This document shows positions 8,487 through 31,759 of a DNA stretch of 32,136 bases, one piece after another. The notes beneath the pieces are model-generated. The model worked only from the letters and a program-made list of their open reading frames with translations. It was not told the DNA's origin and did not search any database. The stretch lies in NCBI GenBank assembly GCA_012735465.1, contig JAAYHJ010000019.1, forward strand, positions 1 through 32,136, given 5' to 3'. Position numbers and translations under genes: made by a program. This DNA is from Clostridiaceae bacterium. Lineage in GTDB: Bacteria; Bacillota; Clostridia; SK-Y3. How positions within the stretch are numbered: the first letter of the stretch is position 1; the number at the start of each line of letters is the position of its first letter.

Positions 8487-9299
8487 TTATTCAAAAACGA
8501 TAACAGCATCCTTATTTTTAATTCTTAATAAGACGGTTTCTAATATGCGGAAGTAATGGTTTAAGTCTTTCGTTTCCAAATATGCCGTAATCATATCCTG
8601 ACCAATGACCAAATCCATATTTTGTGGCTCGTTGCATACTAAAACAGCCTTTTCTCCCTCTAAAATCGGTGTACTGTAAATATTTCCTTGAATAAGCTTA
8701 CTCAGCCTGTCATATTCTGTTGTTCCGGTACCTGGTTGTATTCTTTGCAATTGTACAAAAATACTTGGGCTGACAATAAGGGTTTTCCGTCCGACAAGCC
8801 CTTTCTCAATAAATTTTGCCAGTCCTGTTGATACATCCTTGACCGGGTTTTCACCTTCATTCCAATCGGACTTTGGAAGCCTGGTAATCCCATTTTCTGT
8901 AAGCAGGCCTTTATAGCCCGCATCCTGGTCTCCCAGGAATATCAGTTTATCCTCTTTCATGGCACATTCTGTCGCTGCCCGATATACAGCCGACAGGTCA
9001 AGGGGCAGATCTGCCTGTTCACTGGTCTCCAGGTCTCTCCAGAGGAGTGAAAAATCCTGGGTAATCAAAGGTATCTGCTCATACCTTCTGCCGTGGATTT
9101 TTACGACGCTACCTTCCTTTTCTCCCAGCGCAGATAAATCATCCACATTAATGCTTTGCACACCCGCACCTAAAGGGCCATATATATTCAAGAACCTTCT
9201 GCCTACAAGAACCTGCCTTGCTATGGATACAACGGCATCATCCACCTTCGCCCAGATTTCCGGCGATATGGGTGAACCTTCTCTTGACAAAAAATCCAT
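8487..9299 (-). CDS. Encapsulin nanocompartment shell protein (family 1)
   Basis: The 270-aa protein has the length and motif order of family 1 encapsulins (HK97 phage-capsid fold, formerly the linocin M18 family). Recognisable segments are the N-terminal MDFLSREGSPISPEIW, then GRRFLNIYGPLG, then DLPLDLSAVYRAA, then IFLGDQDAGYKGLL. The C-terminal half has VLVCNEPQNMDLVIGQDM and an ETVLLRIKNKDAVIVFE end. Subunits of this family self-assemble into an icosahedral shell. The gene lies 13 bases after a ferritin-like gene whose C-terminus is an encapsulin-loading peptide, so the product is an iron-storage compartment. Its GGAGG site overlaps the end of the ferritin gene, and a terminator follows. 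Confidence 0.95.
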   Translation of the reverse strand: MDFLSREGSPISPEIWAKVDDAVVSIARQVLVGRRFLNIYGPLGAGVQSINVDDLSALGEKEGSVVKIHGRRYEQIPLITQDFSLLWRDLETSEQADLPLDLSAVYRAATECAMKEDKLIFLGDQDAGYKGLLTENGITRLPKSDWNEGENPVKDVSTGLAKFIEKGLVGRKTLIVSPSIFVQLQRIQPGTGTTEYDRLSKLIQGNIYSTPILEGEKAVLVCNEPQNMDLVIGQDMITAYLETKDLNHYFRILETVLLRIKNKDAVIVFE

Positions 9300-16000: not shown

Positions 16001-17612
16001 ACGTGAGGGTATCAGTTCTTCTGCCAAAGTTTTGATTACGTGCCAGGGATATTCCCATATCACCGTTAGTATCTTGAACATTCGGGTTACCTACCAGTTG
16101 GAAAACATTATACACATAAAAGCCCTTGGCCGGCTCACCGCATCCTCCACCATAATCAACATTTGATGCATCGCTCTTCCAATCTATAGATGCTTTAGGT
16201 TGGTATTTCCTAAAGTTAATAGAAATGAATCTATAAAATAATCCTCCAAAGTCATCCTTAGAACACCAGAAGTTACTTGGACCTCCTGAGAAACCAGGCC
16301 CCCACCACCATGCTGCGGTAAAATCGCTGGGCTGCAAAATATACTTATCACGCCCGGAAGAATATCCCTTTTGCTCCATAGACGCGTCGTCGCTGTCCTC
16401 ATCGGAAAGCAGATAAGGAGATATCACAACCTTGGTCCGGGCCGGTGCTTCCGTCGTTACATCCCCTTTAAACCTTACACCAAAGCTTACTTCATTTTTC
16501 AAAGTACCGTCGGTCTTATACGTTTGTATTTCTATTACTTTTTCTTCTTCCTTCGGTGTAAATATCAGCGTCTCGTCCAGGGTCATGTAGTCCAAATCAG
16601 GATTTGCATCTATTGCATAGGTCATTATATCAACTTTAGCATATGTATTGATTCCCTTTGTCCTCTTTACGATTACCCTTGCCTTTTCACCCGGCTGAAC
16701 AACCTGCTCGTTCGCACCAAAGCTGAAAACCGACTCTTCCATTTCTTCATTGTCCACTATGTTCATTACCACACCGGTAGAATCGCTAATAGCTGCTCCT
16801 CCCTGGGCTGATTTCAAGACAAACAGGACTTGTTCATCATTTTCTGCTACATCGTCGTCTATGATTTCCACCGTTACGGTTTTTATCCTTTCACCGGGTT
16901 TAAATACCAATGTGTGCTCAACGCCTTCTGCTACATTATAAAAGGCATCAAGCTGTGCTTTTGTCTCATTTTTGCTTTCTTCGTCCGCAATCGAAACATC
17001 ATTGAAATCCTTTATGGTTTTGCGGTCACTTTTTACTCCTGTATACCTTTCCTTTGCTTCCATCAGCGGGTTACTGCTTCCTTGCCGGGAATCAGCTTCA
17101 GCCTCCGAACCCTGTTCAATAGTTCCTTTGCCTAAATCAACTTCCACAGCCGGTTCTTCTTCATTTTCTACATATTTTTCCATTATTTCTTCTATTTCCT
17201 CTTCATCCTTCAGGGTCCTTATGGTTACATTGCCGCTTTCAATCAAAGGTACCGCATTTTTATTTTCAGGCAGGGTTTTTGGGAAAAGCCCTTCTTTTAC
17301 TATAATTACATAGTCTTCACCATATTTTGCACTTACATCAATGGCTTTAAAGTCAACCGATACTTCTCCTTCCACACCCCCTTGCCTTACAACTTGGACC
17401 TCAAACTTTTCTCCTTCAGTGGTCTGATATCCTGCGGAATTTATACTAAACAACCCGTTTGGATATTTGGCCACCAGTTCAGGAGCCCCGGCCAGTTCTT
17501 GTCCGACTGATTCGGAAATGTCTTCCGATTGGGCAAAAGCCGGAATGACGCTTGTTACCAAAAAAGTTAACATGACAAAAAGCGCTGTTAATTTTCTTGG
17601 CAACCCTTTCAT
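10062..17612 (-). CDS. Giant secreted multidomain surface protein (Calx-beta, propeller-like, CARDB and Big2 domains)
   Basis: The 2516-aa product begins with a signal peptide (cleavage expected after PAFA, residue 27). Two Calx-beta-like regions follow. The first (about 50-290) is interrupted by an acidic insert of about 100 residues; the second is at about 293-397. A calcium-loop-like DLNGNGELEWEE lies near 840, and a carboxypeptidase-regulatory-like segment (VPDVQVMIDYFSAVTDKNG) near 920. A charged linker is at about 1150-1235, then a glycine-rich amphipathic strand region to about 1400. Next are repeated strands like a beta-propeller (about 1450-1970), two CARDB-like domains (about 1975-2245), a Big2 domain (about 2290-2360) and a final all-beta domain. 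I see no SLH, LPXTG or dockerin anchor. It is probably extracellular, perhaps adhesive or structural. AAAGGGGGAG precedes the ATG. Confidence 0.85.
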   Translation of the reverse strand: MKGLPRKLTALFVMLTFLVTSVIPAFAQSEDISESVGQELAGAPELVAKYPNGLFSINSAGYQTTEGEKFEVQVVRQGGVEGEVSVDFKAIDVSAKYGEDYVIIVKEGLFPKTLPENKNAVPLIESGNVTIRTLKDEEEIEEIMEKYVENEEEPAVEVDLGKGTIEQGSEAEADSRQGSSNPLMEAKERYTGVKSDRKTIKDFNDVSIADEESKNETKAQLDAFYNVAEGVEHTLVFKPGERIKTVTVEIIDDDVAENDEQVLFVLKSAQGGAAISDSTGVVMNIVDNEEMEESVFSFGANEQVVQPGEKARVIVKRTKGINTYAKVDIMTYAIDANPDLDYMTLDETLIFTPKEEEKVIEIQTYKTDGTLKNEVSFGVRFKGDVTTEAPARTKVVISPYLLSDEDSDDASMEQKGYSSGRDKYILQPSDFTAAWWWGPGFSGGPSNFWCSKDDFGGLFYRFISINFRKYQPKASIDWKSDASNVDYGGGCGEPAKGFYVYNVFQLVGNPNVQDTNGDMGISLARNQNFGRRTDTLTWSDSKMGSNYNRYLRYGSWYDYKDDSNLTVYSITLYRRLFEVVPQAAPNLYYRTYTASNRYQETTSINPGSFTFTQTDYYSDETVTLSYSLSSSDVQYVGFQIQDKYDSWGGIITQSGNGITRGNPDRIQISGDFLNKYMDSHGKPSSKSGDGRRFNVRPVFELKPAKFSIEYDSSKFTVPGFNSKEVVNVRFGDTVKINATVNPDTTEAIRAFQIYKDGKLADTIYTTISTAYDFKIDAADYKVKILSEPRGFEAKPYPGITPPAGATVSPSKLENLKPNQVITITANAPEGYTTRWYIRTGDLNGNGELEWEEVDRNRDGQPDPEFRISWEKRHITYTGNVFHFKVEDANPLVYYRFEKIGEGTPITTKPIFGTVTKKVASIRNAYDVKYVGVPDVQVMIDYFSAVTDKNGNFMIKPDPATGREFKFINGEQYPARIMYGGSSYTTYFTPGAGNQWIELPFFESIIPKSIEARVDGILQQGNIEIRDKNIEFLVQTQTTDRNPGKRLAKVSFRVYSKDKVLKHEYTVGEKQLINGTDAKWTTNLANTFVAGDTLSVALYDQFGEEIGETDTGYSFYESPGRNTALPTFAAKDEDGNMIQNEVPIFGNTQANFPMGTQTDTNKAQKEDEPSGTITITIGIDGDKLDEVKELAEKLKPKKEGDTPKPSSEDLKKAKEIADKGNNKPDGGKSSVSTETSPEFEFEISFVLQMKLVDGKVKFQSLVLCASVEAGLSVTVTVVVYGVPLYMTFGGGGSVMGLFAVCAPGEKLEEMPDFVTDKMDEILEKMYVTGLLQVSPWISIEAGVGQEGIGKVGVEGKFEVELTFVFVPVKGGEGTGTISANLKIEFLFFEFDYKIASYKFDMFKYGAAANVLNNGLSQAFDVGEEALKPASRDYLANGKKWVANESMSTKAGLGEVETKTIVTGTYNNTEPKLMAFKDSEGNEKLLLAYIDDVPERDEYNRTAAYITVYDGTKWSEPVIIDDDGTIDADIYLFDLDDEIMIAWSDASRTFTAEDKVSDILSAMNICTTTFNKATGQLSGNVQQVTKETELDTCADTLPRLAKDTETGKVILYYTKTLYQNKQDNPDGKPVVVPGDEFEPVNPGNTIGDLVTAYTAIAYRFYENGKWNEGYDEGEFEDMTPEELEEYTRNWYGQRFLDAGIPNVVNDPKIEESSVVYYNGLSLYAYTVDLDQDTSSPEKLKDQEIFVQIYNFSENSFSHPIRFTNNNVRDYNPQMARYKDRTYLFWVSGDRLVYVDLTTLIKNANPESETSTIRLINIDGKEVYVLSDNFAPEVAMEGIGDTGFGDNYKVAVGQDGNLYLVWTQKVQTVKDGIDPDSIEAEKYENTVQERQFFAAMFEDGLVDLPSTGNDNRRIGIWGLPNQITFAKGANYSGHDFVVLEDGTMVIAHNSYKQKLDENGIMTRDVTTNKLEVSTLKPVSTVGIKPEDIVIGDKYVLPGMDTTITATAKNTGLKAARSMEFIFSQVLDGVETEIGRNKVEGYIPGGKSVTVETDWKVPENFGNEDLKIKVEVIEDGMSDSTVVYKQVPIRAYAIADGVIVRDTFNDPSNLSKDVYMDILEYVQSGNYGMTIDERFKPTAVPEKKNTFLVAANIMNIGNKAAKKVIVSVYIDKLQLTADAIEALEQKGINLDAPLATMTIENMPANSQETVAFNIEVDDLMININNELPIKFVVETVQMDEESDMNIMEEVEEEEDKYTVYTSGKQLQQVSQKEQYQVRNINVDGEKEGIKTRVGDNLKLNISLVPDTAIVANRIEYESSDPSVLQVNEDGTITGKSVGTATLTIKAVPDVPEYINKVTHIDEHDFAGKLIKVDDEAKDIEPFEKQITVEVLPEGTQYGEYFNLITQFKYGSEKATRLEADKVLSAEVRAENVSGETMDAMVIVALYDSNNRMTNVSFIAKTINPGQAEIMSAGFTLPSDVSRYNAKVFVWKGLDLRKAYIPLTGITEINTQGIIYPPLQK

Positions 17613-17781: not shown

Positions 17782-20328
17782 TTACAATATCTTTAATTCC
17801 CTGGCTTTTTCCACCGCCTGTACTCTTCTGTTTACCTGAAGTTTTCCGTATATATTTTTTATATGTGTCTTTACCGTATTGACAGTCATATTCAAACTTT
17901 CAGCAATTTCCTTGTTGGACTGCCCTTCGGCAATCAACTTAAGCACCTCTTTCTCTCTTTCTGTAAGATAATCAACCAATTGCAGGGATGCTTCATCATT
18001 TATTTCGGAATTACTTCTGATTAAAAAATCCTGCAGTGCTTTCACATAAATCATTTGACCAGCTAAAAATTCCAGCAGTTGGATATGTTTTTGGGTAAAT
18101 GCTCCTTCTTTATAGCTGTTTTCCAAATATAAAACTCCCACGGATATGCCTTTCAGCTTTAACGGAACGCAAACTATGGATTTCCCTTTTAACTTTGCAA
18201 TATACGGATCCTGGGAGAATATGCCGGCCTGATTGCTTTTATTCACAATTACCGGCTCATGGGTTCTTACAACATACCGCACCACCTGCTTTGGTAAGTT
18301 AGCGCTTTTTTCCACAGGTATAGGTTTTATAACTTTCAAACTGTCATTTTTGTTTTCCTTAGAGACTTCAATAAACAGTTCTTCATCTCTTTCAAATATT
18401 AGCTCACCCCTGTCCGCACCGGTGATTTTAAGTATCGCTTCCAGTATATTTGTAAGAAGCTCCTCCGGTTTGGATTTCTCGGCAATATTTTTTATTTCAT
18501 TTTGAATCGTATAAAATTCAGCGCTTACTGCCGCTTCACCTTCAGTAATGCTGGAAAGCAGGAGAATATTTTTAAGTAATTCCGCCGAATCAAACTTACT
18601 TTTCTCCTCTTTGACTTCCACTTCATCCAATAATTCCGGATATCGTGACTTCAAGTCCTGGACCTTTGCTTTTGCTCCCCACTGGCAGTACAGACGGAAT
18701 GCATCATTCATATATACCTTTGCAATTTTATTTCTACCTTCAGCCATATAAAGCTTTGCTGCCAATTCGCAAGCAATGGCTTCGTTTTGCAGGTAACCAT
18801 TTTTATGGGCGGACTCAATTGCCTCGTCATACAGCTCCATGGCTTTATTTTTTCTGCCCAAAATGCGAGAAATTTCTGCCTCCACCATTACATATTTATG
18901 TTGAAAATTTGCCGGGCAGGAATCGGACCATTTCTTCATATAGCGCCGGTTTTTATTTATGGTCCTAAGAAACCTCTTTTTTTCCCTTAATGATAACTTG
19001 TCATATATTGCAAGGATTGTTAAAGAATAATAAAATATGTACTCTGAAAATATCATAAAACCCATTATAGCTTCTTTAAAGCCCTCGACTTTTTCAGCTG
19101 CAAAAAGAACATCGGTATAATTACCAAATAAATAGAAAAGCTGCATTTTTAAAGAATAATAGGTTGCAAGGGAGGCTTTATCGTCTTTTACCGATTCAAC
19201 AAGCCGAGCCTCATCAAAACCTTCCAACAAAGCTGAAGAATTATTGCTATCGGTCCTGTTTATCAGGGTAGAAACAATCCACTCATAAACCCCCGCACTG
19301 GAGGCAAGGTTTTCATGCCTTATCAGCCGGGAATAATCCTTGTATTTTTTGGTGTCCTCCAAAAGTTCTTCAAGGGCTGTTCCTATAATGAATTTATTAT
19401 CTAAAATTACGCTGTACGAATACCCTGCAGTAAGTACATCCCCCGCTTCAATTGCATAACGTGCGGCTTTCTCCAGGTATTGGATTCCCTCTTTTCCGTG
19501 TTGTGTCCAATGGCATATTAATGCTCCCATTGTAAAATAAACAATACATTTTGAATTAATCCGGCCGAACTTTTCTACATGCTCTACCGCTACCTTTCCA
19601 AGCTCGTATCCTTTTGAATAATTTCCAAGAACACTTCCCTCTGTTATTCCATATCCTATATACCCTATGGAGCTCGTCTCCATGTTTCCATATTTTAATG
19701 TATGATTGCCTAACTTAATAATTAAAAATGAATATAAATCCGGATGACTGGTACTTGTAGCAAGTATAAGAGCAATAATAATCTGAGCAATCTTCCGCTG
19801 CACCTTATCCTTCATTTCCGGCAGCTCTAACAGATCTCCCATATCCTTATTACGCATATACCATTTATATAGAAGCAGTTCTCTGGCATTATTTAAAATA
19901 CCGAGCCGTATAGGCACCTTTACTCCAAGGTCTTTCAATGCATTTATGCCAATTTGTACAGCCTCATCATACTTGCCTGCTCCGGTATACAAATTCATCT
20001 TCAAAACGTATGCATCTGCCTTTTCAATCCCCGTTTCCGCATTACAGATTAGTGTGTTAAATAACTGTTCCGCTTCAATAATGTTTCCTGTCAAATATTC
20101 GCACTGGGCCCTTTCCATGCAAAGCTCATAATATAAGCGGCGGCAGCTATTCCATGAATTATTGCCAATAAGCCTGGTACCGGCCCTGAAATAATCCCTT
20201 GCCAAATTATAAGCAGCAGATGCTTTTGCCTTTCGTCCCGCAATCAGGTTATACTCGGCAAACCTCAGCTTTTCCTCCGGGTCGCTGATTAAATCAAGCC
20301 CACGGTTTATATGATCCAAAATTGACAA
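17782..20328 (-). CDS. C-terminal fragment of a frameshifted regulator: TPR-like, GAF and LuxR HTH
   Basis: This frame encodes 848 residues: a long helical TPR-like region (about 1-590), a GAF-type sensor domain (about 605-760), and a LuxR/GerE helix-turn-helix at the C-terminus (LTEREKEVLKLIAEGQSNKE, then VNTVKTHIKNIYGKL). The listed start is a TTG without a convincing ribosome site. The same open frame continues upstream through HVKIGRSILKN, which carries straight on from the neighbouring AAA fragment. The break is a seven-A run (20398-20404 on the plus strand as T); one more A would join the frames as IPEEEKK-CIHVKIGRSIL. I read it as the DNA-binding end of one large kinase-like/AAA/TPR/GAF/LuxR protein. 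It may still be made as a separate polypeptide. Confidence 0.8.
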   Translation of the reverse strand: MSILDHINRGLDLISDPEEKLRFAEYNLIAGRKAKASAAYNLARDYFRAGTRLIGNNSWNSCRRLYYELCMERAQCEYLTGNIIEAEQLFNTLICNAETGIEKADAYVLKMNLYTGAGKYDEAVQIGINALKDLGVKVPIRLGILNNARELLLYKWYMRNKDMGDLLELPEMKDKVQRKIAQIIIALILATSTSHPDLYSFLIIKLGNHTLKYGNMETSSIGYIGYGITEGSVLGNYSKGYELGKVAVEHVEKFGRINSKCIVYFTMGALICHWTQHGKEGIQYLEKAARYAIEAGDVLTAGYSYSVILDNKFIIGTALEELLEDTKKYKDYSRLIRHENLASSAGVYEWIVSTLINRTDSNNSSALLEGFDEARLVESVKDDKASLATYYSLKMQLFYLFGNYTDVLFAAEKVEGFKEAIMGFMIFSEYIFYYSLTILAIYDKLSLREKKRFLRTINKNRRYMKKWSDSCPANFQHKYVMVEAEISRILGRKNKAMELYDEAIESAHKNGYLQNEAIACELAAKLYMAEGRNKIAKVYMNDAFRLYCQWGAKAKVQDLKSRYPELLDEVEVKEEKSKFDSAELLKNILLLSSITEGEAAVSAEFYTIQNEIKNIAEKSKPEELLTNILEAILKITGADRGELIFERDEELFIEVSKENKNDSLKVIKPIPVEKSANLPKQVVRYVVRTHEPVIVNKSNQAGIFSQDPYIAKLKGKSIVCVPLKLKGISVGVLYLENSYKEGAFTQKHIQLLEFLAGQMIYVKALQDFLIRSNSEINDEASLQLVDYLTEREKEVLKLIAEGQSNKEIAESLNMTVNTVKTHIKNIYGKLQVNRRVQAVEKARELKIL

Positions 20329-20378
20329 AATCTTCCTGTCAAGTTGCTCTTTATCAGTATTCTTAAGAATCGACCTTC

Positions 20379-21416
20379 CTATTTTAACGTGTATACATTT
20401 TTTTCTTCTTCGGGAATCATAGAATATGCTGTCTGCCTTACCATATCGTGTAAAAATTCATAAGTATCTTCCCCATTATTGAGGTATAATAACTGGGTAC
20501 CATTTTCAGAACGGCAAACCTGGAGTATAAGTCCCTCCAGTATTGCAGGCATAAGAAGAGCAACCGTTTCAATACTTGTCTTTTCCATTACTTCCGATAG
20601 TATTTTCAAATCAAAGGTATCTCCAATACAGGAAGCAAATTTTATTGTCCTTCGCGTTTCTTCATGGAACTTTTGCAGCTTATCAAGCATAAAGGCTATG
20701 ACATCATCATTAATTTGAAGTTTATATATGGATTCTGCATCCCATTCCCAGCATCCCTTATTCATATTAAATTCTATTAAGTTTTCCTTGTAAATAAACT
20801 TTAATAATTGTCCTATAAAAAAAGGAATGCCACATGTCTTCCTATACAAGATTTCTGCCAGTGCCTCTGCTTTTTTCTCATTGCAGCACAAGACCCCTGC
20901 AATGAATTCAGCAGTTACTGCACGATTTAATGGCGGAAGATATATTTCCTTCACCATAATACCGTCTTTCTTTATTTCATCAAGAATTGCATGGAACGGA
21001 TGTTCCGCAGCAATCTCGTTTTCGCGATAAGCGCCTGCAATAATCAGGCCTTTTAAACCGGTGTCCCTGCATAAATAACTGATAAGTCGTAGAGAAGATG
21101 AATCAGCCCATTGCAGGTCATCGAGAAACAGCACCAATGGACGCTCGGGATCAGCAAAAATTTTTATAAAACTTCCAAAAAGCATTAAAAACCGGTTTTG
21201 GGCTTCCTTGGGTTGGAGCGACTCAACAGGTGACTGACGACCAATAATCATCTCCAGTTCAGGTATGAGATCTGTAATAATTGCACCATTTTTACCTAAA
21301 GTACGTAAAATTTTTTGTTTCCAAATTGCAAGCTGTTCCTTGCTCTCCGTCATAAGCTGCCTTATCAGGCTTTCCAAAGCAGTAACAAAGGGAGAGTAAG
21401 GTATGTTTTGTTGCAA
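20379..21416 (-). pseudogene. Middle fragment of the frameshifted regulator: AAA ATPase core
   Basis: This open frame of 345 residues continues the AAA (AAA_16/MalT-like) ATPase whose P-loop lies in the preceding fragment. Its Walker B is PLVLFLDDLQWAD (about residues 93-105). The region beyond it resembles the winged and helical parts of STAND-type ATPases. The formal start is a TTG with no ribosome site. In the same frame the coding sequence can be read further upstream as EVLKPIAIEKGYFAYGKFDQ, which is what should follow the P-loop. It ends prematurely at TAG (20379-20381), just after the A7 run. It lacks both a P-loop and a start signal, so it is unlikely to be an independent gene. Confidence 0.8.
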
Positions 21417-21474
21417 TTGATCAAACTTGCCATACGCAAAGTATCCCTTTTCAATAGCAATAGGTTTTAGAACC

Positions 21475-22485
21475 TCAATTTAACAACGCAGTTTTACCTA
21501 CCCCTGCATATCCACTTATAATGATAAGCTCACCTTGCCCATTACATGCACGCTTAAATGCCGATTTTAAAATTTTTGCTTCCTTTTCCCTTCCGTAAAG
21601 CCTGTGGGGCAGCTCAAAACGCAGGGATATATCCATCCGACCAGGAATAAACGGTTCAATTTTACCTGTTAAATTCCACTGTCTTCTACATTCGTCCAAG
21701 TCTTTTATAATTCCATAGGCGCTTTGATACCCATCATCAGGGTTCTGCGAAAGCAATTTCATGATAATATCCCTTATGGCTACAGGTATCTCAGGATTAA
21801 TTTTATAAAAACTGTAATCCGGGTATTCATTGAAACCTGTCGGCCCTGCTGAGCAATGTCCTGATAAGATTTCAAGAAATACCTTCCCAAGGGAAAAATA
21901 ATCACAGCGGTAATCAATAGTTTCTTCCAGCCATGCATTTTCACCGGCAGTTCCATGTACAATGGTATTTGATAAAGCATCAAGCACAGAGGAATCCATG
22001 CTTTTCACAGAAAAAAGGACCGCATTATTAAATCCTGTAATTTTAGTTATTCCTGTGTCGGGATTAACAAAAATATTGTCCACATTCAAATCCCTATGTA
22101 TGATCCCGTTTTTATGTAGCCTCCCAAGGATCTCTGCCAGCTGAATAGCAATGTCAAGGAAGATGGGCACCTCCAAGGGTCTATTCTTAATATACTCTCT
22201 TAAAGTAACTGCCCCTACATCTTCCATTATCATGGCAAAGTAATTTCCTATATTTTCCAGTTTTATCGGTTCCATAACTCCTTCAATTTTAAGTACACGG
22301 GCAATCTCGTACTCATAAATCAGCTTTGATATTTCTAATGGATTTGATGCCTCTTCCTTTAACACTTCTATCAAAACCGGTATCTGCTTTTTCTCCATGC
22401 ATCCCCTGTAAAGCCTTATTCTGTTATTCTCGTAAACCATCTCCTTTATCACATAACCTTGCAACAAGATCATCATTCCCCACAA
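21475..22485 (-). CDS. N-terminal fragment of the frameshifted regulator: protein-kinase-like domain and AAA P-loop
   Basis: Residues about 10-270 form a serine/threonine-kinase-like domain with the catalytic loop IIHRDLNVDNIFVN. The usual DFG is TGF and the VAIK lysine motif is not clear, so catalysis is doubtful. After LPHRLYGREKEAKIL comes a P-loop, ISGYAGVGKTALLN, where translation stops at TGA (21475-21477). Removing one base near 21475-21484 would continue ALLN into EVLKPIAIEKGYFAYGKFD in the next frame. The annotated start is TTG at 22485; ATG codons at 22476 and 22473 are better chemically, but no strong ribosome site is present. The full ancestral protein would be about 1560 residues. 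The P-II gene lies 51 bases upstream. Confidence 0.75.
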   Translation of the reverse strand: MWGMMILLQGYVIKEMVYENNRIRLYRGCMEKKQIPVLIEVLKEEASNPLEISKLIYEYEIARVLKIEGVMEPIKLENIGNYFAMIMEDVGAVTLREYIKNRPLEVPIFLDIAIQLAEILGRLHKNGIIHRDLNVDNIFVNPDTGITKITGFNNAVLFSVKSMDSSVLDALSNTIVHGTAGENAWLEETIDYRCDYFSLGKVFLEILSGHCSAGPTGFNEYPDYSFYKINPEIPVAIRDIIMKLLSQNPDDGYQSAYGIIKDLDECRRQWNLTGKIEPFIPGRMDISLRFELPHRLYGREKEAKILKSAFKRACNGQGELIIISGYAGVGKTALLN

Positions 22486-22536: not shown

Positions 22537-23205
22537 CTATTTATATATGCCGTAAGTTTTATTTACATTTTGAACATAAATGATGCCATTGCCGGGTTCA
22601 TCAATTTTCAGCTCGTTCCTTATAGAATTTACAATAGCCTCCGTGTGCTCCACTTCTGAAAGTATAATGACAATTTCCTTTTCCGGTTCTATATCCATGG
22701 CAAAAACTTTACTGGTTTCATGAATCCCCGAACCCCTGGCATTGATTATAGTCCCTCCCTTTGAACCTGCCTTGGTAGCCGCATCAATTACGTCCTCGCC
22801 CTTACCTTTATCAACAATTATTGTTATGGCATGATACATAATATTATCTGCACCTCTTTCACCTTTAATGTTTTTACATTTAATACTTTTTGTTCCCATC
22901 ACGGAACATATGGAAGTTGTAAAGGCTATACCATGATTTGGTTTATGAAATGAATACACCTGATCCAATTTTTCAAGAGCTTTATATGCCGTTTCCTTTT
23001 CAGCAGCCATAAATACAATCTCTTTCCTTACATCCGAAAGGCCTAAGAAATCCAGAATCCTATTATTAACCGTTCCTCTTGCCAATGCTATCGTACCACC
23101 GGAAATGCCATATTGCTTGGCCGTATGTATAACCTTGCTTCCCAGTCCTGCATTTACTATTACGCAAATCAACTCTATGTCCATCGATTCGGAGATATTA
23201 ACCAT
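22537..23205 (-). CDS. Tandem P-II-like regulatory protein
   Basis: The 222-aa protein contains two P-II (GlnB/GlnK-like) domains in a row. Each has the characteristic loop: GGTIALARG at 36-44 and GGTIINARG at 150-158. Each begins with a strand of hydrophobic residues and ends with an I(I/V)xxL/A-type strand. P-II proteins bind effectors such as ATP/ADP and 2-oxoglutarate and dock on transporters or enzymes. Here the gene overlaps the DUF1538 membrane-protein gene by 8 bases, so the pair is translationally coupled and the membrane protein is the obvious target. A GGGAGG site lies 12 bases before the ATG. The ligand is not known, and T-loop uridylylation cannot be judged. Confidence 0.82.
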   Translation of the reverse strand: MVNISESMDIELICVIVNAGLGSKVIHTAKQYGISGGTIALARGTVNNRILDFLGLSDVRKEIVFMAAEKETAYKALEKLDQVYSFHKPNHGIAFTTSICSVMGTKSIKCKNIKGERGADNIMYHAITIIVDKGKGEDVIDAATKAGSKGGTIINARGSGIHETSKVFAMDIEPEKEIVIILSEVEHTEAIVNSIRNELKIDEPGNGIIYVQNVNKTYGIYK

Positions 23206-24688
23206 TACCTTCTATTCCTCCCTTTTTAGATTTTACCTTAAATATAAGACCTAAAACCTGCAGAGCAATTAAAGGGGTCATTGCAACCATTGCAATCACT
23301 CCAAATCCGTCAACCATGACGTTGGCACCTTCAATCGCTTCTGCTGCTCCCTGGGCATATGCAAGTATAAAAGTAGCAGTCATCGGCCCCGATGCAACTC
23401 CACCCGAATCAAATGCAATACCTACAAACAGTATTGGAACGAAATAAGTCATTCCTAAGGCAATAATATATCCGGGAAGAAGATACTGCCATAGTTGCAA
23501 TTCCGGAACAAGAATTCTCAGTATAGATAATGCAACAGCACAACCAACTCCAATTGAAAGGGTAATGATGACAGCTTTTCTATTTACACAACCGCTTGTA
23601 ACATCTTCAATCTGATGTGTCAACACATAAACAGCCGGTTCGGCCAGTATGGTAACAACTCCCAATATAAAGCCAATCAATACGACATAAGCCTTATTTC
23701 CCAACATGGCTAACTTATAGCCGACGATACTTCCTACATCCATAAAACCTGCATTAACTCCTAATAAAAATAAGACAAGTCCAAAAAACATGAACAAAGA
23801 ACCAAATAAAATTCTTCGTACAGCTCTCTTTGACAGTTTTAAGGAGATTCTTTGGAAAATGAAAAAAATTATAAGTATTGGCAGCAACGCCAGGATTACT
23901 TCTCCAGCTATTATTGGAAGCTTTTGAATAAATGGCATAATAATTGACGTTGATGTCGCTTCATCATAGCTAAGAGTAGCTGTAATCTTATCTGCTTTTG
24001 ACAGGATACTCATCATCATTACCGCTAAAATCGGTCCTATATAAGCAATACCAACTAATCCAAAGCTATCCTGCTCAGAAGACTTGCTGTCCTTTTTTAG
24101 TTTTGAAACACCTGTGGCAAGAGCTAATATAAATGGAACTGTCATTGCGCCGGTAGCAGCTCCTGATGCGTCAAAGGATATTGCCAGAAACTCCGGTGAC
24201 GTAAATATAGCAATTATAAGTATAATGCCATAGAAAATTGACAGAATTTTATTCAATGATATATTATAAACTATTCTTACAAGACCTATAGAAAGCATCA
24301 CTGCAATTCCAATCGATACAATAACAACAATGCTCAATTTTGAAATTAAACCTGATGTAACAGCATCTACCTGTCCAGCTAAAATATGGAGAGCGGGCTC
24401 GGCGATGGAAATAAAAAAACCAAGTATTAATCCGGCTAAAATAACTGCTGATATTTTATTCGTTTTTGCAATAGCTGAACCCATAGTATTACCAATTGGC
24501 GTAAGTCCAATATCAACACCTAATAAAAATATTGTTAATCCTATAATAATCAGAACCGCCCCAATAAGGAACCTAATAAGTATTGGTGTATCAATAGGTG
24601 TTAAGGTAAAATGAAGTATTACCCCAATCAGTGTAATAGGAAGAACTGAATATAAAACCTCCTTGAATTTTGATATAATGACATTCAA
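23198..24688 (-). CDS. DUF1538 family multi-pass membrane protein
   Basis: The 496-aa protein has about 12 hydrophobic segments and is built from two similar halves. Motif pairs show this. AEPALHILAGQVDAVTSG in the first half matches AEPAVYVLTHQIEDVTSG in the second. ISFDASGAATGAMTVPFILA matches IAFDSGGVASGPMTATFILA. This is the DUF1538 family, whose function is not settled; the duplicated glycine-rich and acidic motifs suggest a transporter or channel. The start is TTG (24686-24688): an in-frame TGA lies two codons upstream, and AGAGGA is about 10 bases before it. It is transcribed from a likely sigma-A promoter at 24736-24764 and is coupled to the tandem P-II gene. Confidence 0.85.
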   Translation of the reverse strand: MNVIISKFKEVLYSVLPITLIGVILHFTLTPIDTPILIRFLIGAVLIIIGLTIFLLGVDIGLTPIGNTMGSAIAKTNKISAVILAGLILGFFISIAEPALHILAGQVDAVTSGLISKLSIVVIVSIGIAVMLSIGLVRIVYNISLNKILSIFYGIILIIAIFTSPEFLAISFDASGAATGAMTVPFILALATGVSKLKKDSKSSEQDSFGLVGIAYIGPILAVMMMSILSKADKITATLSYDEATSTSIIMPFIQKLPIIAGEVILALLPILIIFFIFQRISLKLSKRAVRRILFGSLFMFFGLVLFLLGVNAGFMDVGSIVGYKLAMLGNKAYVVLIGFILGVVTILAEPAVYVLTHQIEDVTSGCVNRKAVIITLSIGVGCAVALSILRILVPELQLWQYLLPGYIIALGMTYFVPILFVGIAFDSGGVASGPMTATFILAYAQGAAEAIEGANVMVDGFGVIAMVAMTPLIALQVLGLIFKVKSKKGGIEGNG

Positions 24689-25363: not shown

Positions 25364-28009
25364 TTATTTCATTTGTTTTATTTGCTGTTTTTCTTCCGGA
25401 GTCAATGCATCTTCAAGATAATTACGGTCAAGTTTCCCTGTGTCCTGGTATTCACGCCTTATTCTTTCATTTACTTCGTCAATTTCAGCTTTCAGTTCCC
25501 TGGCCAACAGCAGGGAACATCCTGCCCCCCTTATGATTATCTGCTGCAATCCGTCCGATGTGGCAACCGTTATATCATATTTTTTCTGATTGTCATGGGC
25601 AAATTTTTCAATATATTGGTCCGCTGTTTGGGCTTCTTTTGTAAATACAACATGGATATTATTGTAGTCGATTATTTCCTCCGCATGCCCTTGAACACGG
25701 TATGCATCAAATACAACTATAATCTCACAATTCCGGGTTCCTTTATAATTGCTCAGATAATCAAGCAGTTTTATTCTGGCACTTTCCATATCCCCATCTG
25801 CCAGTTCTTTTAGTTCGGGCCATGCATGGATAATATTATAGCCATCCACAAGGAGATATTTTTCTTTAATTTCCTTAACCTCTTTCTTCTTCTCAATTTG
25901 GGAAACCGGATGATATAAAACACTACGTTCCCCTTTTCTTTTTTTCCAACTTGATTTTTTCCCTTTATTGGCAAAAAAGGTATTTTGGAAAATACGCTCA
26001 ATTTCCTCTAAGCTAATCCATCTTTCTTCAGTATAGGAAGCATGATTGGAGGTGTTTTCTTCCGATGGATCACCTTTACTGCTAAGATAGCTTTCCACGT
26101 GCATATAATCCTTTACTTCATCCCAACTAACCAAGAAACCCACACCATTTTTACAAAATATTGAATAGGTAGGGTTTTCTATATCCTTTTCCGAATCATA
26201 ACCTATGCTTTCGATAACCTCTTGCGCATTGTGACATGGTTCGTACCCTCTAAAGGTACAAAACAGTCTGCCAAGACCTTTGGTATAGGCAACTACCTCT
26301 TTCTGATAATTCCTCATGGTAACAACAGGAGCACTTCCGACAAGAACCGCCGTCTCTCCGTTTGTTTGCGATATTTCACACGTACCATACATCCTTTTAA
26401 TATCGGTCATGGCTCTGCCTACCATTTTTTCAGGAAGTTCCAGTCGGAAGTCATAATAAGGCTCCAACAATATGGACTGGGCCTCTTTTAAACCCTGGCG
26501 CACTGCGCGGTAGGTAGCTTCTCTGAAATCACCGCCCTCTGTATGCTTAGGATGTGCTTTTCCTGCGACCAAAGTAATCTTCATATCCGTAATTGCTGAC
26601 CCTGTCAAAACTCCTTTGTGAACTTTTTCTTGCAGATGGGTTAAAATAAGTCTTTGCCAGTTCCTGCTCAACATATCTTCACTGCAATTGGTCTCAAACT
26701 GAAGGCCGCTCCCCCTTTCTCCCGGTTCCAATAATAGGTGAACTTCCGCATAATGCCGCAATGGTTCAAAGTGCCCGACTCCTTCTACCGTGTTGGCAAT
26801 CGTCTCTTTGTATACAACTTTCCCCTCATCAAAGGTCACATCAACACCAAACCGACTTTTTATAAGCCCCTGTAAAATTTCAATCTGTACTTCACCCATA
26901 ATCTGCACCTGAATTTCCTGTAACTGCTCATCCCAGGTGATATGTAGTTCCGGTTCCTCTTCTTCAATTTGACGCAGCTTAGGGAGCATTGCCCTTGGGT
27001 CACAACCTTCCTTAAATATAATCTGATAAGACAAAACAGGCTCCAATACAGGCGTACCTGAAGCTTTTTCTATACCCAAACCTTCCCCCGGCCTGGTATA
27101 GCTCAATCCTGTCACTGCAAATACGGAACCCGCTTCTATCTCATTTATAGCCTGGAATTTTTGACCGGAATAGATCCGAATTTGATTTACTTTTTCTTCC
27201 CAGATACCATTGGTTAATGCATCTTTTACTTTAAGCTTTCCTCCTGTAAGCTTCATATGAGTAAGGCGGTTTCCCTGCTCATCCCTTGTTATCTTAAAAA
27301 TTTTAGCTCCAAACTCATCAGGATAATGGGGTATGAGGGTATACTTTTCTATACCCTGCATCAGCTGCTCAACACCCTCTAATTTTAAAGCTGAACCAAA
27401 AAAGCATGGGAACACCTTTCGCTCCAAAACAGCCTTTTTAATCTGCTCGGTTTCAATATGTCCTGTTTCCAGGTAGGATTCCATCATAACCTCATCACAC
27501 ATGGCCAGCTGGTCATACAATTCGTCCTCTCGTACCTGTCCGAATTCAATACATCCGTCATCCAGCTGCTCTTTCAGCTCTTTCATTAACTTGTCCTTAT
27601 CGGTACCCTTTTGATCCATTTTATTTACGAATATAAAAACAGGAATCCTGTACATGTGAAGGAGCCGCCACAATGTTTTTGTATGTCCCTGTACACCATC
27701 CGCACCGCTTATCACCAAAATGGCATAATCCAAAACCTGAAGCGTTCTCTCCATTTCCGCCGAAAAATCCACATGTCCCGGGGTGTCCAATAAGGTAACC
27801 TGAATTTCTCCTATATCTAATACAGCCTGCTTGGAGAAAATTGTTATTCCCCTTGCCCTTTCCATTTCATAGGTATCAAGGAAGGCGTCCTTATTATCCA
27901 CCCTTCCCAAATTTCCAATCTTACCGCTCAGATAAAGCATGCTCTCTGCCAATGTGGTTTTACCCGCATCCACATGGGCCAGTATACCAATAACCAATTT
28001 TTTCATCAT
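25364..28009 (-). CDS. Tet(M)-like ribosomal-protection GTPase fused to a NYN (YacP/Rae1-like) nuclease domain
   Basis: The first 650 or so residues are an EF-G/Tet(M)-type translation GTPase. The G1 motif is AHVDAGKTTL (11-20), switch II is DTPGHVDF, and G4 is NKMD, followed by the EF-G-like later domains. Tet(M) itself is about 640 aa. A basic linker (GKKSSWKKRKGER) leads to a C-terminal domain from about residue 715. It has YLLVDGYNIIHAWPEL, IIVVFDAYRVQG and TVATSDGLQQ, the acidic motifs of NYN/PIN-like YacP proteins. B. subtilis YacP (Rae1) is a ribosome-dependent mRNA endonuclease, so the fusion may place a nuclease at the A site. Its promoter (28089-28117) is followed by a leader hairpin that may act as an attenuator. 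AAAGGA lies 10 bases before the start. Confidence 0.88.
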   Translation of the reverse strand: MMKKLVIGILAHVDAGKTTLAESMLYLSGKIGNLGRVDNKDAFLDTYEMERARGITIFSKQAVLDIGEIQVTLLDTPGHVDFSAEMERTLQVLDYAILVISGADGVQGHTKTLWRLLHMYRIPVFIFVNKMDQKGTDKDKLMKELKEQLDDGCIEFGQVREDELYDQLAMCDEVMMESYLETGHIETEQIKKAVLERKVFPCFFGSALKLEGVEQLMQGIEKYTLIPHYPDEFGAKIFKITRDEQGNRLTHMKLTGGKLKVKDALTNGIWEEKVNQIRIYSGQKFQAINEIEAGSVFAVTGLSYTRPGEGLGIEKASGTPVLEPVLSYQIIFKEGCDPRAMLPKLRQIEEEEPELHITWDEQLQEIQVQIMGEVQIEILQGLIKSRFGVDVTFDEGKVVYKETIANTVEGVGHFEPLRHYAEVHLLLEPGERGSGLQFETNCSEDMLSRNWQRLILTHLQEKVHKGVLTGSAITDMKITLVAGKAHPKHTEGGDFREATYRAVRQGLKEAQSILLEPYYDFRLELPEKMVGRAMTDIKRMYGTCEISQTNGETAVLVGSAPVVTMRNYQKEVVAYTKGLGRLFCTFRGYEPCHNAQEVIESIGYDSEKDIENPTYSIFCKNGVGFLVSWDEVKDYMHVESYLSSKGDPSEENTSNHASYTEERWISLEEIERIFQNTFFANKGKKSSWKKRKGERSVLYHPVSQIEKKKEVKEIKEKYLLVDGYNIIHAWPELKELADGDMESARIKLLDYLSNYKGTRNCEIIVVFDAYRVQGHAEEIIDYNNIHVVFTKEAQTADQYIEKFAHDNQKKYDITVATSDGLQQIIIRGAGCSLLLARELKAEIDEVNERIRREYQDTGKLDRNYLEDALTPEEKQQIKQMK

Positions 28010-28041: not shown

Positions 28042-28069
28042 TAAAAAATTACAGACCCTTCAGGCCTGT
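28042..28069 (-). terminator. Terminator of the exporter operon, also placed as a leader attenuator of the GTPase-nuclease gene
   Basis: ACAGACC (28051-28057) pairs with GGCCTGT (28063-28069), with one G-U pair in the RNA, and the stem is followed by six U in the minus direction. It lies downstream of the promoter at 28089-28117 and about 33 bases before the GTPase-nuclease start codon. Transcripts from that promoter must therefore pass through it. Confidence 0.7.
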
Positions 28070-28088: not shown

Positions 28089-28117
28089 ATTATAACCGTA
28101 AGTTCAGGATTTGACAA
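28089..28117 (-). promoter_or_regulatory. Sigma-A-type promoter for the GTPase-nuclease gene
   Basis: TTGTCA (28112-28117) and TATAAT (28089-28094) are separated by 17 bases on the minus strand. The -35 box begins only two bases beyond the exporter stop codon. The predicted start of transcription is near 28082, about 12 bases before the hairpin at 28042-28069. Confidence 0.7.
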
Positions 28118-28119
28118 TT

Positions 28120-30018
28120 TTACTCCAGTTCAAATGCACCGGTATACAGTTGATAGTACTGACCTTTCTTAGCTATCAACTCCTCATGGTTGCCCCGTTC
28201 AATGATACGCCCGTGATCCAATACTATTATAACATCCGCATTTTTAACCGTGGACAGGCGATGGGCAATCACAAATACCGTTCTGCCTTTCATCAAAGCA
28301 TCCATTCCCCGCTGAACAATGGCTTCCGTCCTTGTATCAATGGAAGATGTTGCTTCATCCAGAATCATAACCGGAGGGTCTGCAACCGCTGCCCTTGCAA
28401 TGGAAATTAACTGACGTTGTCCCTGGGACAGGTTTGCACCATTTTCAGTAATCAGCGTATTATAGCCATCGGGCAAACGACAAATGAAATCATCCGCTCC
28501 TACAAGCTTTGCAGCCGCAATACATTCTTCATCAGTGGCATCCAGTCTGCCGTAGCGAATATTATCCATTACAGTACCGGTAAAAAGGTTGGTATCCTGC
28601 AAAACCATTCCAATGGCACGGCGAAGATCCGATTTCTTAATTTTATTGATATTAATGCCGTCATAACGGATTTTTCCATCGGCAATATCATAAAAACGAT
28701 TTAGTAAATTTGTGATAGTCGTCTTTCCTGCGCCGGTTGCACCGACAAAGGCTACCTTCTGCCCCGGTTTTGCATAAAGGCTTATATCGTGTAAAACAGG
28801 TTTCCCTGGTTCATATTCGAAATCAACATTGAATAACCTTACGTCACCGTTTAACCTGGTATATGTCACGGAACCATCACTACTATGGGGATGCTTCCAG
28901 GCCCAAATCCCTGTTCTTTCTTTGCACTCTATTAACTGGCCGTTTTCTTCACGGACATTTACAAGGGTGACATACCCGTTGTCCTGTTCCGGTTCTTGAT
29001 CAATCAAATCATAGATTCGCTTTGCACCGGCAATTCCCATAACAACGGCATTTATCTGATGGGATACCTGGTTAATATTACCAACAAATTGCTTTGTCAT
29101 GTTCAGAAACGGAACAACAATGCTAATTCCCATTGAAAGCCCTGAAATACTCAGATTCGGGGCATCGGTGACCAATAAAACACCGCCGGTAACTGCAACA
29201 AAAACATATAATATATTGCCAATATTATTCAAAACAGGACCCAGTATATTGGCATATCGGTTTGCTGCATTTGCATCATTAAATAAAGATTCATTAATCT
29301 TGTCAAAATCCGCTTTGCTTTCATTTTCATGACAGAAGACTTTAATTACTTTTTGTCCGTTCATCATTTCTTCCACAAAACCTTCCAGTCGGCCAATAGC
29401 CTCCTGCTGTTTAATAAAGTATTTGGCGGAACCGCCTCCAACCTTTCTTGTAACAAAGAGCATAACAACTACACCAATGACTACCACAAGGGTCAGCCAT
29501 ATGCAGAAGTACATCATAATGCTGAAAATAGTAATAACCGTGATGCTTGACACCAGAAGCTGCGGAAAACTCTGGGATATCATCTGCCTCAGTGCATCAA
29601 TATCATTGGTATAATAACTCATGATATCCCCATGATTATTCGTGTCTATATATTTAATTGGGAGTGTCTGCATCCTGTTAAACATTTTAACACGAAATTT
29701 TTTCAAAGTTCCCTGATTAATAACTGCCATCATCTGGTTATATATAATACTGCTTATAAGGGACAGTATATAAAACACTACCAATATGGAAACAAGGTGT
29801 AATATTTTCCCTCCCACTGCATTCCAGTCGCCGGTATGCCAGTTTTTCTCCACGATGGCAATGATGTTCTGCATAAATACGGCAGGAATGGAACTTATAA
29901 TTGCATTTAATATTATACATATAATGACAACCGGAAACATTACCGGATAAAACTCAAATATGTTTTTAAACAAGCGAAAGATGACGGATTTTTTATTTTT
30001 AGTATTATCAGTTTTCAC
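28120..30018 (-). CDS. ABC exporter subunit with canonical ATPase site (YheH/BmrD-like)
   Basis: With a GTG start at 30018 the protein is 632 aa and begins MKTDNTKNKKSVIF. An ATG at 30069 is open but has no ribosome site and would overlap the upstream gene by 62 bases; the GTG overlaps it by 11, with AAGGCAGGTG in front. Six transmembrane helices are followed by an insert of about 40 residues (ERTGIWAWKHPHSS) and the nucleotide-binding domain. That domain has Walker A GATGAGKTT, signature LSQGQ (non-standard), Walker B VMILDEATS with the catalytic Glu, and switch IAHRLST. It forms a heterodimer with the product of the preceding gene, like BmrCD, LmrCD and TM287/288, which export drugs. No peptidase domain is present. 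Confidence 0.88.
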   Translation of the reverse strand: MKTDNTKNKKSVIFRLFKNIFEFYPVMFPVVIICIILNAIISSIPAVFMQNIIAIVEKNWHTGDWNAVGGKILHLVSILVVFYILSLISSIIYNQMMAVINQGTLKKFRVKMFNRMQTLPIKYIDTNNHGDIMSYYTNDIDALRQMISQSFPQLLVSSITVITIFSIMMYFCIWLTLVVVIGVVVMLFVTRKVGGGSAKYFIKQQEAIGRLEGFVEEMMNGQKVIKVFCHENESKADFDKINESLFNDANAANRYANILGPVLNNIGNILYVFVAVTGGVLLVTDAPNLSISGLSMGISIVVPFLNMTKQFVGNINQVSHQINAVVMGIAGAKRIYDLIDQEPEQDNGYVTLVNVREENGQLIECKERTGIWAWKHPHSSDGSVTYTRLNGDVRLFNVDFEYEPGKPVLHDISLYAKPGQKVAFVGATGAGKTTITNLLNRFYDIADGKIRYDGININKIKKSDLRRAIGMVLQDTNLFTGTVMDNIRYGRLDATDEECIAAAKLVGADDFICRLPDGYNTLITENGANLSQGQRQLISIARAAVADPPVMILDEATSSIDTRTEAIVQRGMDALMKGRTVFVIAHRLSTVKNADVIIVLDHGRIIERGNHEELIAKKGQYYQLYTGAFELE

Positions 30019-31759
30019 CCTGAACACCTGCCTTATTTTGGGAATAGTATATTTCTCGATAAATGGCATTTTCAGCTAATAATTCTTTATGGGTTCCGAT
30101 ACCGTTGATACAACCTTTGTCCATGACTATTATCCTGTCCGCATCCTCCACAGAAGCTGTTCTCTGGGCTATAATTATCTTGGTTGTCTCCGGCATATAT
30201 TCCCGCAATGCCTTACGAATCTTGGCATCTGTCTTGGTATCCACCGCACTGGTGGAATCGTCAAGAATTAATATTTTGGGCTTCTTAAGCAATGCTCTTG
30301 CAATACAAAGCCTTTGCTTTTGACCGCCTGATAAATTGGCTCCACCTTGCTCCACGTAGGTGTCATAACCCTCGGGAAACTGGTTGATGAATTCATCAGC
30401 ACAGGCAAGCCTGCAAGCTTCAATCAATTCTTCGTCGGTTGCATCTTTATTACCCCAACGGAGATTCTCTTTGATGGTGCCTGAAAACAGTGTATTCTTT
30501 TGCAGCACCACAGCAACCTGGTTCCTCAGGGTATCCAAATCGTAATTTCTTACATCTATTCCACCTACTTTTACAACCCCTTCCGTTACATCATACAGGC
30601 GCGGAATCAACTGAACAAGGGAAGATTTTGAAGCCCCTGTACCACCGATAATTCCAATGGTTTCACCGGATCTTATTTGTAAATTTATGTTTGACAAAAC
30701 CATTCTCTCGGCTTTTTCGGAATACTTAAAACTAACATTTTCAAAAGAAATAGAACCATCCTTAACAGTATATATGGGGTTTTCAGGATTTGTTAATGTG
30801 CTTTTTTCCTTTAATACTTCCACTATACGCTTGGCCGATTCGCCCGCTAAAGTAAACATAACAAACACCATGGAAAGCATCATAAGACTGACTAAAATCA
30901 TAAAATTATATGTCAATATAGCGGAAAACTGCCCTATATCAAAGTCCAGTCCCCTGCTGGTGATAACGGTATAGGAACCAAAGGACAGAACAAACGCCAT
31001 AACTGAATACATGCAAAACTGCATTAAAGGTCCGTTAAATGCTACAATGCGTTCAGCCTTTGTAAAGTCGGCACATACATCCTGGGCCGCTGCCTCAAAT
31101 TTTTTCTGCTCATAATCTTCCCGGACAAAAGATTTTACCACTCGCATTCCTTTAATATTTTCCTGGATCGATTTATTCAGCGCATCATATTTGGCAAAAA
31201 CCTTTTTAAACAATGGAAAAGCTTTGTATATTATTATACCCAGGCCAATTGCAAGAATAGGAGTAACCACCAGAAAAATCCAGGCCATACGTCCACCCAT
31301 TACAAAGGCCATCACAAAGGCAAAGATCAGCATTAAAGGAGCACGTACCGCCACTCTAATCAGCATCATATACGCCATTTGCACATTGGTAACATCGGTT
31401 GTCATGCGGGTGATCAAGGATGAGGTTAAAAACTTATCAATGTTTTCAAAGGAAAAATTCTGAATATTATAAAACATATCCTTCCGTAAATTTTTTGCAA
31501 AACCGCAAGACGCAGTGGCACTGGTAGACCCTGCAATACCACCGAAGATCAATGACAAAAACGCCATGATAACCAGAATAACACAATATTTAATTATTGT
31601 GCTTAAATCACACCCGCCTTTAATTTCATTTACCAATGTGGCTGTAATGAATGGAATGATACATTCAATAACTACCTCTAAGCTAATAAGTATTGGAGTT
31701 ATAATTGATTGTTTCTTATACTCACGTATGCTTCGTGCCAGTTCTCTAATTACATCCAT
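30008..31759 (-). CDS. ABC exporter subunit with degenerate ATPase site (YheI/BmrC-like)
   Basis: The 583-aa protein has six transmembrane helices (about 1-300) and an ATPase domain. The ATPase site is degenerate in three places: Walker A is GGTGASKSS (Ser for the last Gly), Walker B is ILILDDSTS (Asp for the catalytic Glu), and the switch His is Gln (IIAQRTAS). Its signature LSGGQ is canonical. In heterodimeric exporters one composite site is inactive. That site here pairs this Walker A/B with the partner LSQGQ, so the pattern fits. AAAGGA lies about 14 bases before the ATG. The gene follows a promoter and a leader containing a terminator hairpin (31782-31831), which suggests attenuation control as known for bmrCD. 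Confidence 0.9.
   Translation of the reverse strand: MDVIRELARSIREYKKQSIITPILISLEVVIECIIPFITATLVNEIKGGCDLSTIIKYCVILVIMAFLSLIFGGIAGSTSATASCGFAKNLRKDMFYNIQNFSFENIDKFLTSSLITRMTTDVTNVQMAYMMLIRVAVRAPLMLIFAFVMAFVMGGRMAWIFLVVTPILAIGLGIIIYKAFPLFKKVFAKYDALNKSIQENIKGMRVVKSFVREDYEQKKFEAAAQDVCADFTKAERIVAFNGPLMQFCMYSVMAFVLSFGSYTVITSRGLDFDIGQFSAILTYNFMILVSLMMLSMVFVMFTLAGESAKRIVEVLKEKSTLTNPENPIYTVKDGSISFENVSFKYSEKAERMVLSNINLQIRSGETIGIIGGTGASKSSLVQLIPRLYDVTEGVVKVGGIDVRNYDLDTLRNQVAVVLQKNTLFSGTIKENLRWGNKDATDEELIEACRLACADEFINQFPEGYDTYVEQGGANLSGGQKQRLCIARALLKKPKILILDDSTSAVDTKTDAKIRKALREYMPETTKIIIAQRTASVEDADRIIVMDKGCINGIGTHKELLAENAIYREIYYSQNKAGVQGEN

Follow-up and report, generated by a model that had tools for sequence, protein, structure and literature searches.

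A Rae1-like nuclease fused to an EF-G-like GTPase takes the place of stand-alone Rae1 in many Clostridia

In many Clostridia, a fusion protein in which an EF-G-like GTPase is followed by a Rae1/YacP-like NYN nuclease domain takes the place of stand-alone Rae1. We studied the gene for such a protein in a 32,136-nucleotide stretch of DNA from a Clostridiaceae bacterium (contig JAAYHJ010000019.1), referred to as the window in this text. With moderate confidence, we consider this gene to be the bacterium's Rae1 in a tethered form, with the GTPase acting as a ribosome-entry arm in the three steps set out below. The architecture itself has been known since 2015, when a genome analysis described "Tet" proteins of ten Clostridiales species that end in a YacP-like NYN domain and interpreted them as Tet proteins whose resistance mechanism might involve an RNase, without functional tests (Atkinson 2015, PMC4342817). 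What changes here is the reading: the fusion replaces Rae1, and its GTPase belongs to a family other than Tet. A functional study (biochemistry or genetics) of any fusion protein was not found among the open-access papers searched, a set without the two main Rae1 papers.

The gene (25364-28009) is a single frame of 881 aa on the minus strand, running from an ATG at 28009 to the stop codon at 25364-25366, while the plus strand is closed by many stop codons over 25364-28009. A second ATG at 28006 corresponds to the start position matched by many relatives. The initial annotation, which gave no strand, had joined a GTPase and a C-terminal NYN domain in one frame. This proved correct, since the frame spans exactly these positions and a Pfam search of the 881-aa protein placed all five EF-G-type domains and NYN_YacP in it. 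The G domain (aa 5-223, 27341-27997, minus strand like all features of the gene; GTP_EFTU, 7e-51) has intact GKTT, RGIT, DTPGHVDF and NKMD motifs. It is followed by domains II and III (aa 234-394, 26828-27310; EF-G_D2 at 234-309 and EFG_III at 323-394), domain IV (aa 396-511, 26477-26824; EFG_IV, 2.6e-20) and domain V (aa 514-595, 26225-26470; EFG_C, 5e-17). By alignment, the GTPase continues at its C-terminus into an extension (aa 590-640, 26090-26242) with the pattern CHN...NPT.S(I/V)FC.(H/N)G...YMH, after which come a disordered linker (aa 641-715, 25865-26089; pLDDT below 50 at 645-712) and the NYN_YacP nuclease domain (aa 719-880, 25370-25855; 3.4e-54).

A search for the same architecture across Clostridia, as the annotation had suggested, found relatives at 80 loci of our genome collection, nearly all of them full length and 47-81% identical. 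Because of these 80 relatives, and because 51 sequences (the window protein and 50 relatives) could be aligned end to end, the fusion is neither a chance read-through nor an assembly artefact. An AlphaFold2 model built on the 51-sequence alignment reached a mean pLDDT of 80.6, and its one long stretch of low confidence, 645-712, is the linker. Two occurrences lie in unusual records. One fusion (L030:8001-10631), in a record named Calditrichales bacterium MX18-03, nests with Lutispora and reflects either a misnamed assembly or an inter-phylum transfer. Two further full-length fusions lie on faecal "Bacteriophage sp." scaffolds (MT835563.1 and MT835514.1); a phage origin is doubtful for them, as the scaffolds are UNVERIFIED, unannotated and probably host DNA.

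The assignment of the C-terminal half to Rae1/YacP was confirmed. It scored 183.7 bits with NYN_YacP (Pfam cut-off 24.6) over profile positions 1-164 of 166, and phmmer matched it to the B. subtilis YacP structure 5mq9 with 7.6e-25, aligning D722 to Rae1 D7 and D797 to D81. Loss of the acidic residues, named beforehand as a finding that would refute a factor that binds ribosomes and cleaves mRNA, was not seen: D722 (25844-25846), D768 (25706-25708), D797 (25619-25621) and D819 (25553-25555), all on the minus strand, are conserved in essentially all fusions, and together with N725, E801 and S818 they are invariant or nearly so. Such clustered aspartates are characteristic of the active sites of NYN nucleases, in another of which an aspartate of this kind was shown to be required (PMC11346440). 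B. subtilis Rae1 is described as an endonuclease that cleaves mRNA in the A site and may favour stalled ribosomes (PMC6613710; PMC10100781). In a B. subtilis efp mutant, which lacks EF-P, loss of Rae1 acts as a suppressor of the swarming defect (PMC6613710).

The genome of the window (98.6% complete) has one NYN_YacP domain only, the fused one. Among 393 genomes of the class Clostridia, 249 had a match, and 248 of these were sorted by open-frame length into 129 with the fusion, 112 with the stand-alone form and 7 ambiguous cases, two of which (G156 and G172) are contig-edge pieces of fusions. Both forms were intact together in just one of the 393 genomes (G284), whereas about 37 such genomes would be expected if the two were independent (Fisher p ~1e-22, uncorrected for shared ancestry). 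Most families have a single form throughout; in five, the window's own among them, both forms occur. In one genus (g27), seven species carry the fusion and one genome (G054) has the stand-alone gene only and no such GTPase. Beyond the class, we also found the fusion in other Bacillota groups, where most domain-bearing genomes have the stand-alone form.

Synteny is the part of the replacement evidence that is independent of shared ancestry. In the cases examined, the stand-alone yacP gene follows cysS and mrnC and is flanked by rlmB on one side and sigH on the other. We read this native site, identified by the native SigH and RlmB, in ten fusion genomes and in G284. The window's genome has a gap of 81 bp between rlmB and sigH, without yacP; its nuclease is not the ~170-aa form located there but is fused and encoded elsewhere. 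Six further fusion genomes had no recognisable yacP between rlmB and sigH (G117 with a marginal trace, E 0.003). Broken yacP remnants were found at the native site in G026 and G370, one with frame breaks and the other with a stop codon and an internal deletion, and a faint remnant in G299. G284 carries the fusion with yacP still intact at its native site, the state expected just before yacP loss. The mutual exclusion of the two forms, and a native site where yacP is either missing or broken down, tie the fusion to the job of Rae1; the fusion may have supplanted the free protein in roughly half of the domain-bearing Clostridia. The replacement shows that stand-alone Rae1 is dispensable in these genomes, not that the GTPase helps in cutting.

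It seems most likely to us that the GTPase delivers the nuclease to the ribosome, where it cuts mRNA, because the fusion makes stand-alone Rae1 dispensable and because the factor is built like proteins that enter the A site. In a first step, the GTPase with GTP would bind a ribosome, most plausibly a slow or stalled one with a free A site, and insert domain IV into this site. GTP hydrolysis would then release or reposition the GTPase, and the NYN domain, on its flexible linker of ~70 residues, could reach the exposed codon or the entering mRNA and cut it. Finally, the cut message would be degraded and the truncated complex passed to ordinary rescue. A hand-over, in which the nuclease occupies the A site once domain IV has left, must be assumed because the two cannot both fill it. 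We infer ribosome binding, mRNA as the substrate, the order of events, the role of GTP and the joint action of the domains.

The main rival is that two separate activities share one chain: the NYN domain would do the work of Rae1 and the GTPase an unrelated EF-G-like job, such as clearing or resetting ribosomes, the fusion merely keeping both at the ribosome. We regard this as rather unlikely. In its favour, the GTPase also occurs as a separate protein, both in genomes that have YacP and in genomes that lack it. We found unfused copies in 4 of 40 genomes without any YacP and in 10 of 40 genomes with stand-alone YacP, and because they occur in both settings, the GTPase has a function independent of the fusion. 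The difference between these counts is too weak for co-occurrence with stand-alone YacP to serve as evidence, and we did not use it. A close unfused GTPase is also present in Ligilactobacillus salivarius. This member (L147:2986-4920) lies on the Bacilli megaplasmid pMP118, adjoins an rpsN copy, and is named TetM/W/O/S family in RefSeq, yet scores below the cut-off of the resistance model. What counts against two unrelated activities is that a single fusion fits both trees, that it is kept in 129 of 393 genomes and that reversal is almost unseen. The fused NYN domains form one clade (support 99) together with one stand-alone domain, and the NYN and GTPase trees are compatible with a single fusion event. 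This stand-alone NYN protein (L110, 190 aa) is 55% identical to the window's domain and comes from a genome (G209) that also has an unfused GTPase elsewhere; it may represent the donor type or a later split.

The linker bears on the same question from both sides. The long disordered stretch predicted by the model would make the two halves structurally independent, which favours separate activities; however, the linker holds a conserved motif, which does not. A simple pattern search recovered this helix-plus-basic motif, ISLEEIERIFQNTFFANKGKKSSWKK (25940-26017) in the window, from 57 of 74 sequences, and it coincides with the helix 667-678, the only structure that AlphaFold2 predicts within 645-712. 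The "basic linker" of the initial annotation held for residues 670-715 (median net charge +6) but not for the whole of 641-715, where the median over 75 sequences is only +2. The extension after domain V (CHN...FC.HG...YMH) is predicted to be ordered, with a helix (595-602) and two strands (616-620 and 623-627). It is absent from Tet and EF-G and common to the unfused relatives, which end there. Residues C592, H593, C619 and H637 are conserved and make up a candidate zinc site.

A second rival, the one proposed in 2015, takes the protein for a resistance factor of the Tet type, directed against tetracycline or another A-site drug, with an added RNase. We consider this improbable. The proteins have been classed in the Tet subfamily (PMC4342817), some relatives are named TetM/TetW/TetO/TetS family in RefSeq, and in our GTPase tree (a short search with SH-aLRT supports) the Tet proteins are the sister group (94) of a clade (99) formed by the fusions and their unfused relatives, with EF-G outside. 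Of the features of a Tet(M)-type protein, the five EF-G-like domains and intact GTPase motifs are present, the key residues of these motifs being identical in 75 of 75 fusions. Among proteins of solved structure, Tet(O) and Tet(M) are the closest in sequence (phmmer 3e-76 to TetO). The predicted structure is EF-G-like over residues 1-608. Fold comparison with Foldseek and VIA-align ranks EF-G first, Tet(M) also spans residues 2-630, and the comparison does not discriminate between the two; the matches listed are filled by the GTPase part and include none to the NYN domain.

Against resistance of the Tet type, the window protein reached only 437.9 bits with the NCBIfam model tet_protect (NF012153; cut-off 775), which a Tet(M) control passed with 877.4, and two relatives failed it as well (374 and 389 bits). 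It also stayed below the cut-off of the EF-G model TIGR00484 (303 against 659.4 bits). Loop I, loop III and the C-terminus of Tet are absent. For domain IV, we aligned the window protein and 74 other fusions with 15 unfused relatives, four Tet proteins and 15 EF-G rows. Loop I reads EGVGHFEPLRHYAEVHL (26735-26785) in place of PPNPFWA in Tet and QSGGRGQYGHV in EF-G, and the domain IV signature GKAHPKHTEGGDFR (26522-26563) differs from both. Loop III follows the family pattern G(K/R)AHxKHTxGGDFR, compared with GLYYSPVSTPADFR in Tet and GSYHEVDSSEMAFK in EF-G. The window protein has AHPKHT where Tet loop III has YYSPVS, and xKH occurs in most of the 75 fusions and 15 unfused sequences. The tip residue H486 is found in 75 of 75 fusions and aligns with a histidine in all 15 EF-G rows, where Tet has a tyrosine; this EF-G histidine (H583 in E. 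coli) matters for translocation. In EF-G and Tet(M), domain IV is the part that enters the 30S A site.

The sequence of the tip alone does not exclude drug removal, as a Tet(M) triple mutant in loop III (S508A P509A V510A) was reported to be still active (PMC4750697). However, resistance-gene prediction, which flags tet(M), tet(O) and tet(S) records, gave no match on the two relatives examined, and at the level of whole families the fusion replaces a chromosomal gene, unlike an acquired resistance gene. The initial label "Tet(M)-type" for the GTPase could thus not be kept, given the tet_protect score, the missing loop III and C-terminus and the separate clade; its companion claim, that the protein is not simply a tetracycline resistance factor, is supported by sequence and not by experiment. 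Tetracycline protection by the fusion is unlikely, and the GTPase forms a family of its own, distinct from Tet and EF-G and existing unfused too.

Finally, the GTPase might direct the nuclease to ribosomes or precursors so that it makes maturation cuts in rRNA or tRNA, a role first proposed for NYN_YacP (cited in PMC4342817) and in keeping with yacP adjoining mrnC and rlmB, a 23S methylase gene, but this seems improbable, as Rae1 of B. subtilis, the member that has been characterised, has mRNA as its target and depends on translation for cutting it (PMC10100781; PMC11346440).

The surroundings of the gene add little to the tethered-Rae1 reading. No conserved gene neighbour of the fusion, and none pointing to a process, was found in 74 loci, and because of this the ABC transporter pair and the glyoxalase-like gene beside the window fusion are incidental. 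The leader of the bmr ABC operon is a Rae1 target in B. subtilis; a functional link with the upstream ABC pair (28120-31759) was nevertheless rejected on the same 74 loci. A possible promoter of the gene's own (TTGTCA-17 nt-TATAAT, 28089-28117, minus strand) matches the consensus at 11 of 12 positions. Such promoter-like sites show no clear excess over shuffles in the region, so that the candidate is weak. A hairpin with a T run (28051-28069, minus strand), 40 nt before the start codon, is not position-conserved among relatives and probably is the terminator of the upstream ABC genes. Ribosome-mediated attenuation was rejected because the terminator-like hairpins upstream of the fusion, seen in 21 of 62 loci, lie at scattered distances that fit terminators of preceding genes. 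Neither an Rfam match nor a conserved leader structure was found upstream of the fusion.

Elsewhere in the window, all on the minus strand, we noted an encapsulin-type shell protein (8487-9299; Linocin_M18, 2e-76) and a 2516-aa protein with Calx-beta and CARDB domains and no NCBIfam match (10062-17612), probably a surface protein. A kinase/AAA_16/TPR-GAF-LuxR regulator is spread over three frames (17782-22485), its AAA_16 domain being cut between the first two, which indicates a broken gene or assembly errors. A P-II-like protein adjoins a DUF1538 protein (22537-24688), possibly a regulated transporter pair.

With Rae1 naturally joined to a GTPase, the ribosome entry of Rae1 and its choice of ribosomes become testable, since the GTPase half can be mutated, removed or supplied apart. 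Many gut and soil Clostridia carry proteins annotated as resistance factors of the TetM/TetW/TetO/TetS family; these are probably translation-coupled RNA decay factors, not resistance genes.

Compared with known systems, the window protein shares with Rae1/YacP of B. subtilis (PDB 5mq8, 5mq9) NYN homology over most of the length, with D7 and D81 kept. Rae1 stands alone with ~170 aa and is encoded beside rlmB, whereas here the domain forms the C-terminus of an 881-aa GTPase. The unfused GTPases (L113-L126 in Clostridia and the one on L. salivarius pMP118) are 41-50% identical over aa 1-640 and have the same loop and extension signatures, but they end at the extension (YMHC or nearby), without linker and NYN domain. 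Tet(M) and Tet(O) (PDB 3j9y, 4v6v), from the sister clade, have the five-domain shape in common with the window protein and are ~30% identical to it; they differ in loop I, loop III and the C-terminus, and the window protein additionally has extension, linker and nuclease. Elongation factor G shares the fold and the aligned, conserved histidine at the tip of domain IV, is ~25-29% identical and has other domain IV loops. The window protein matches the architecture described in 2015, a Tet/EF-G-like GTPase and a YacP-like NYN domain in one chain. In contrast to that description (PMC4342817), the GTPase scores below the cut-off for the Tet family, the fusion is far more widespread than ten species, and it replaces stand-alone Rae1.
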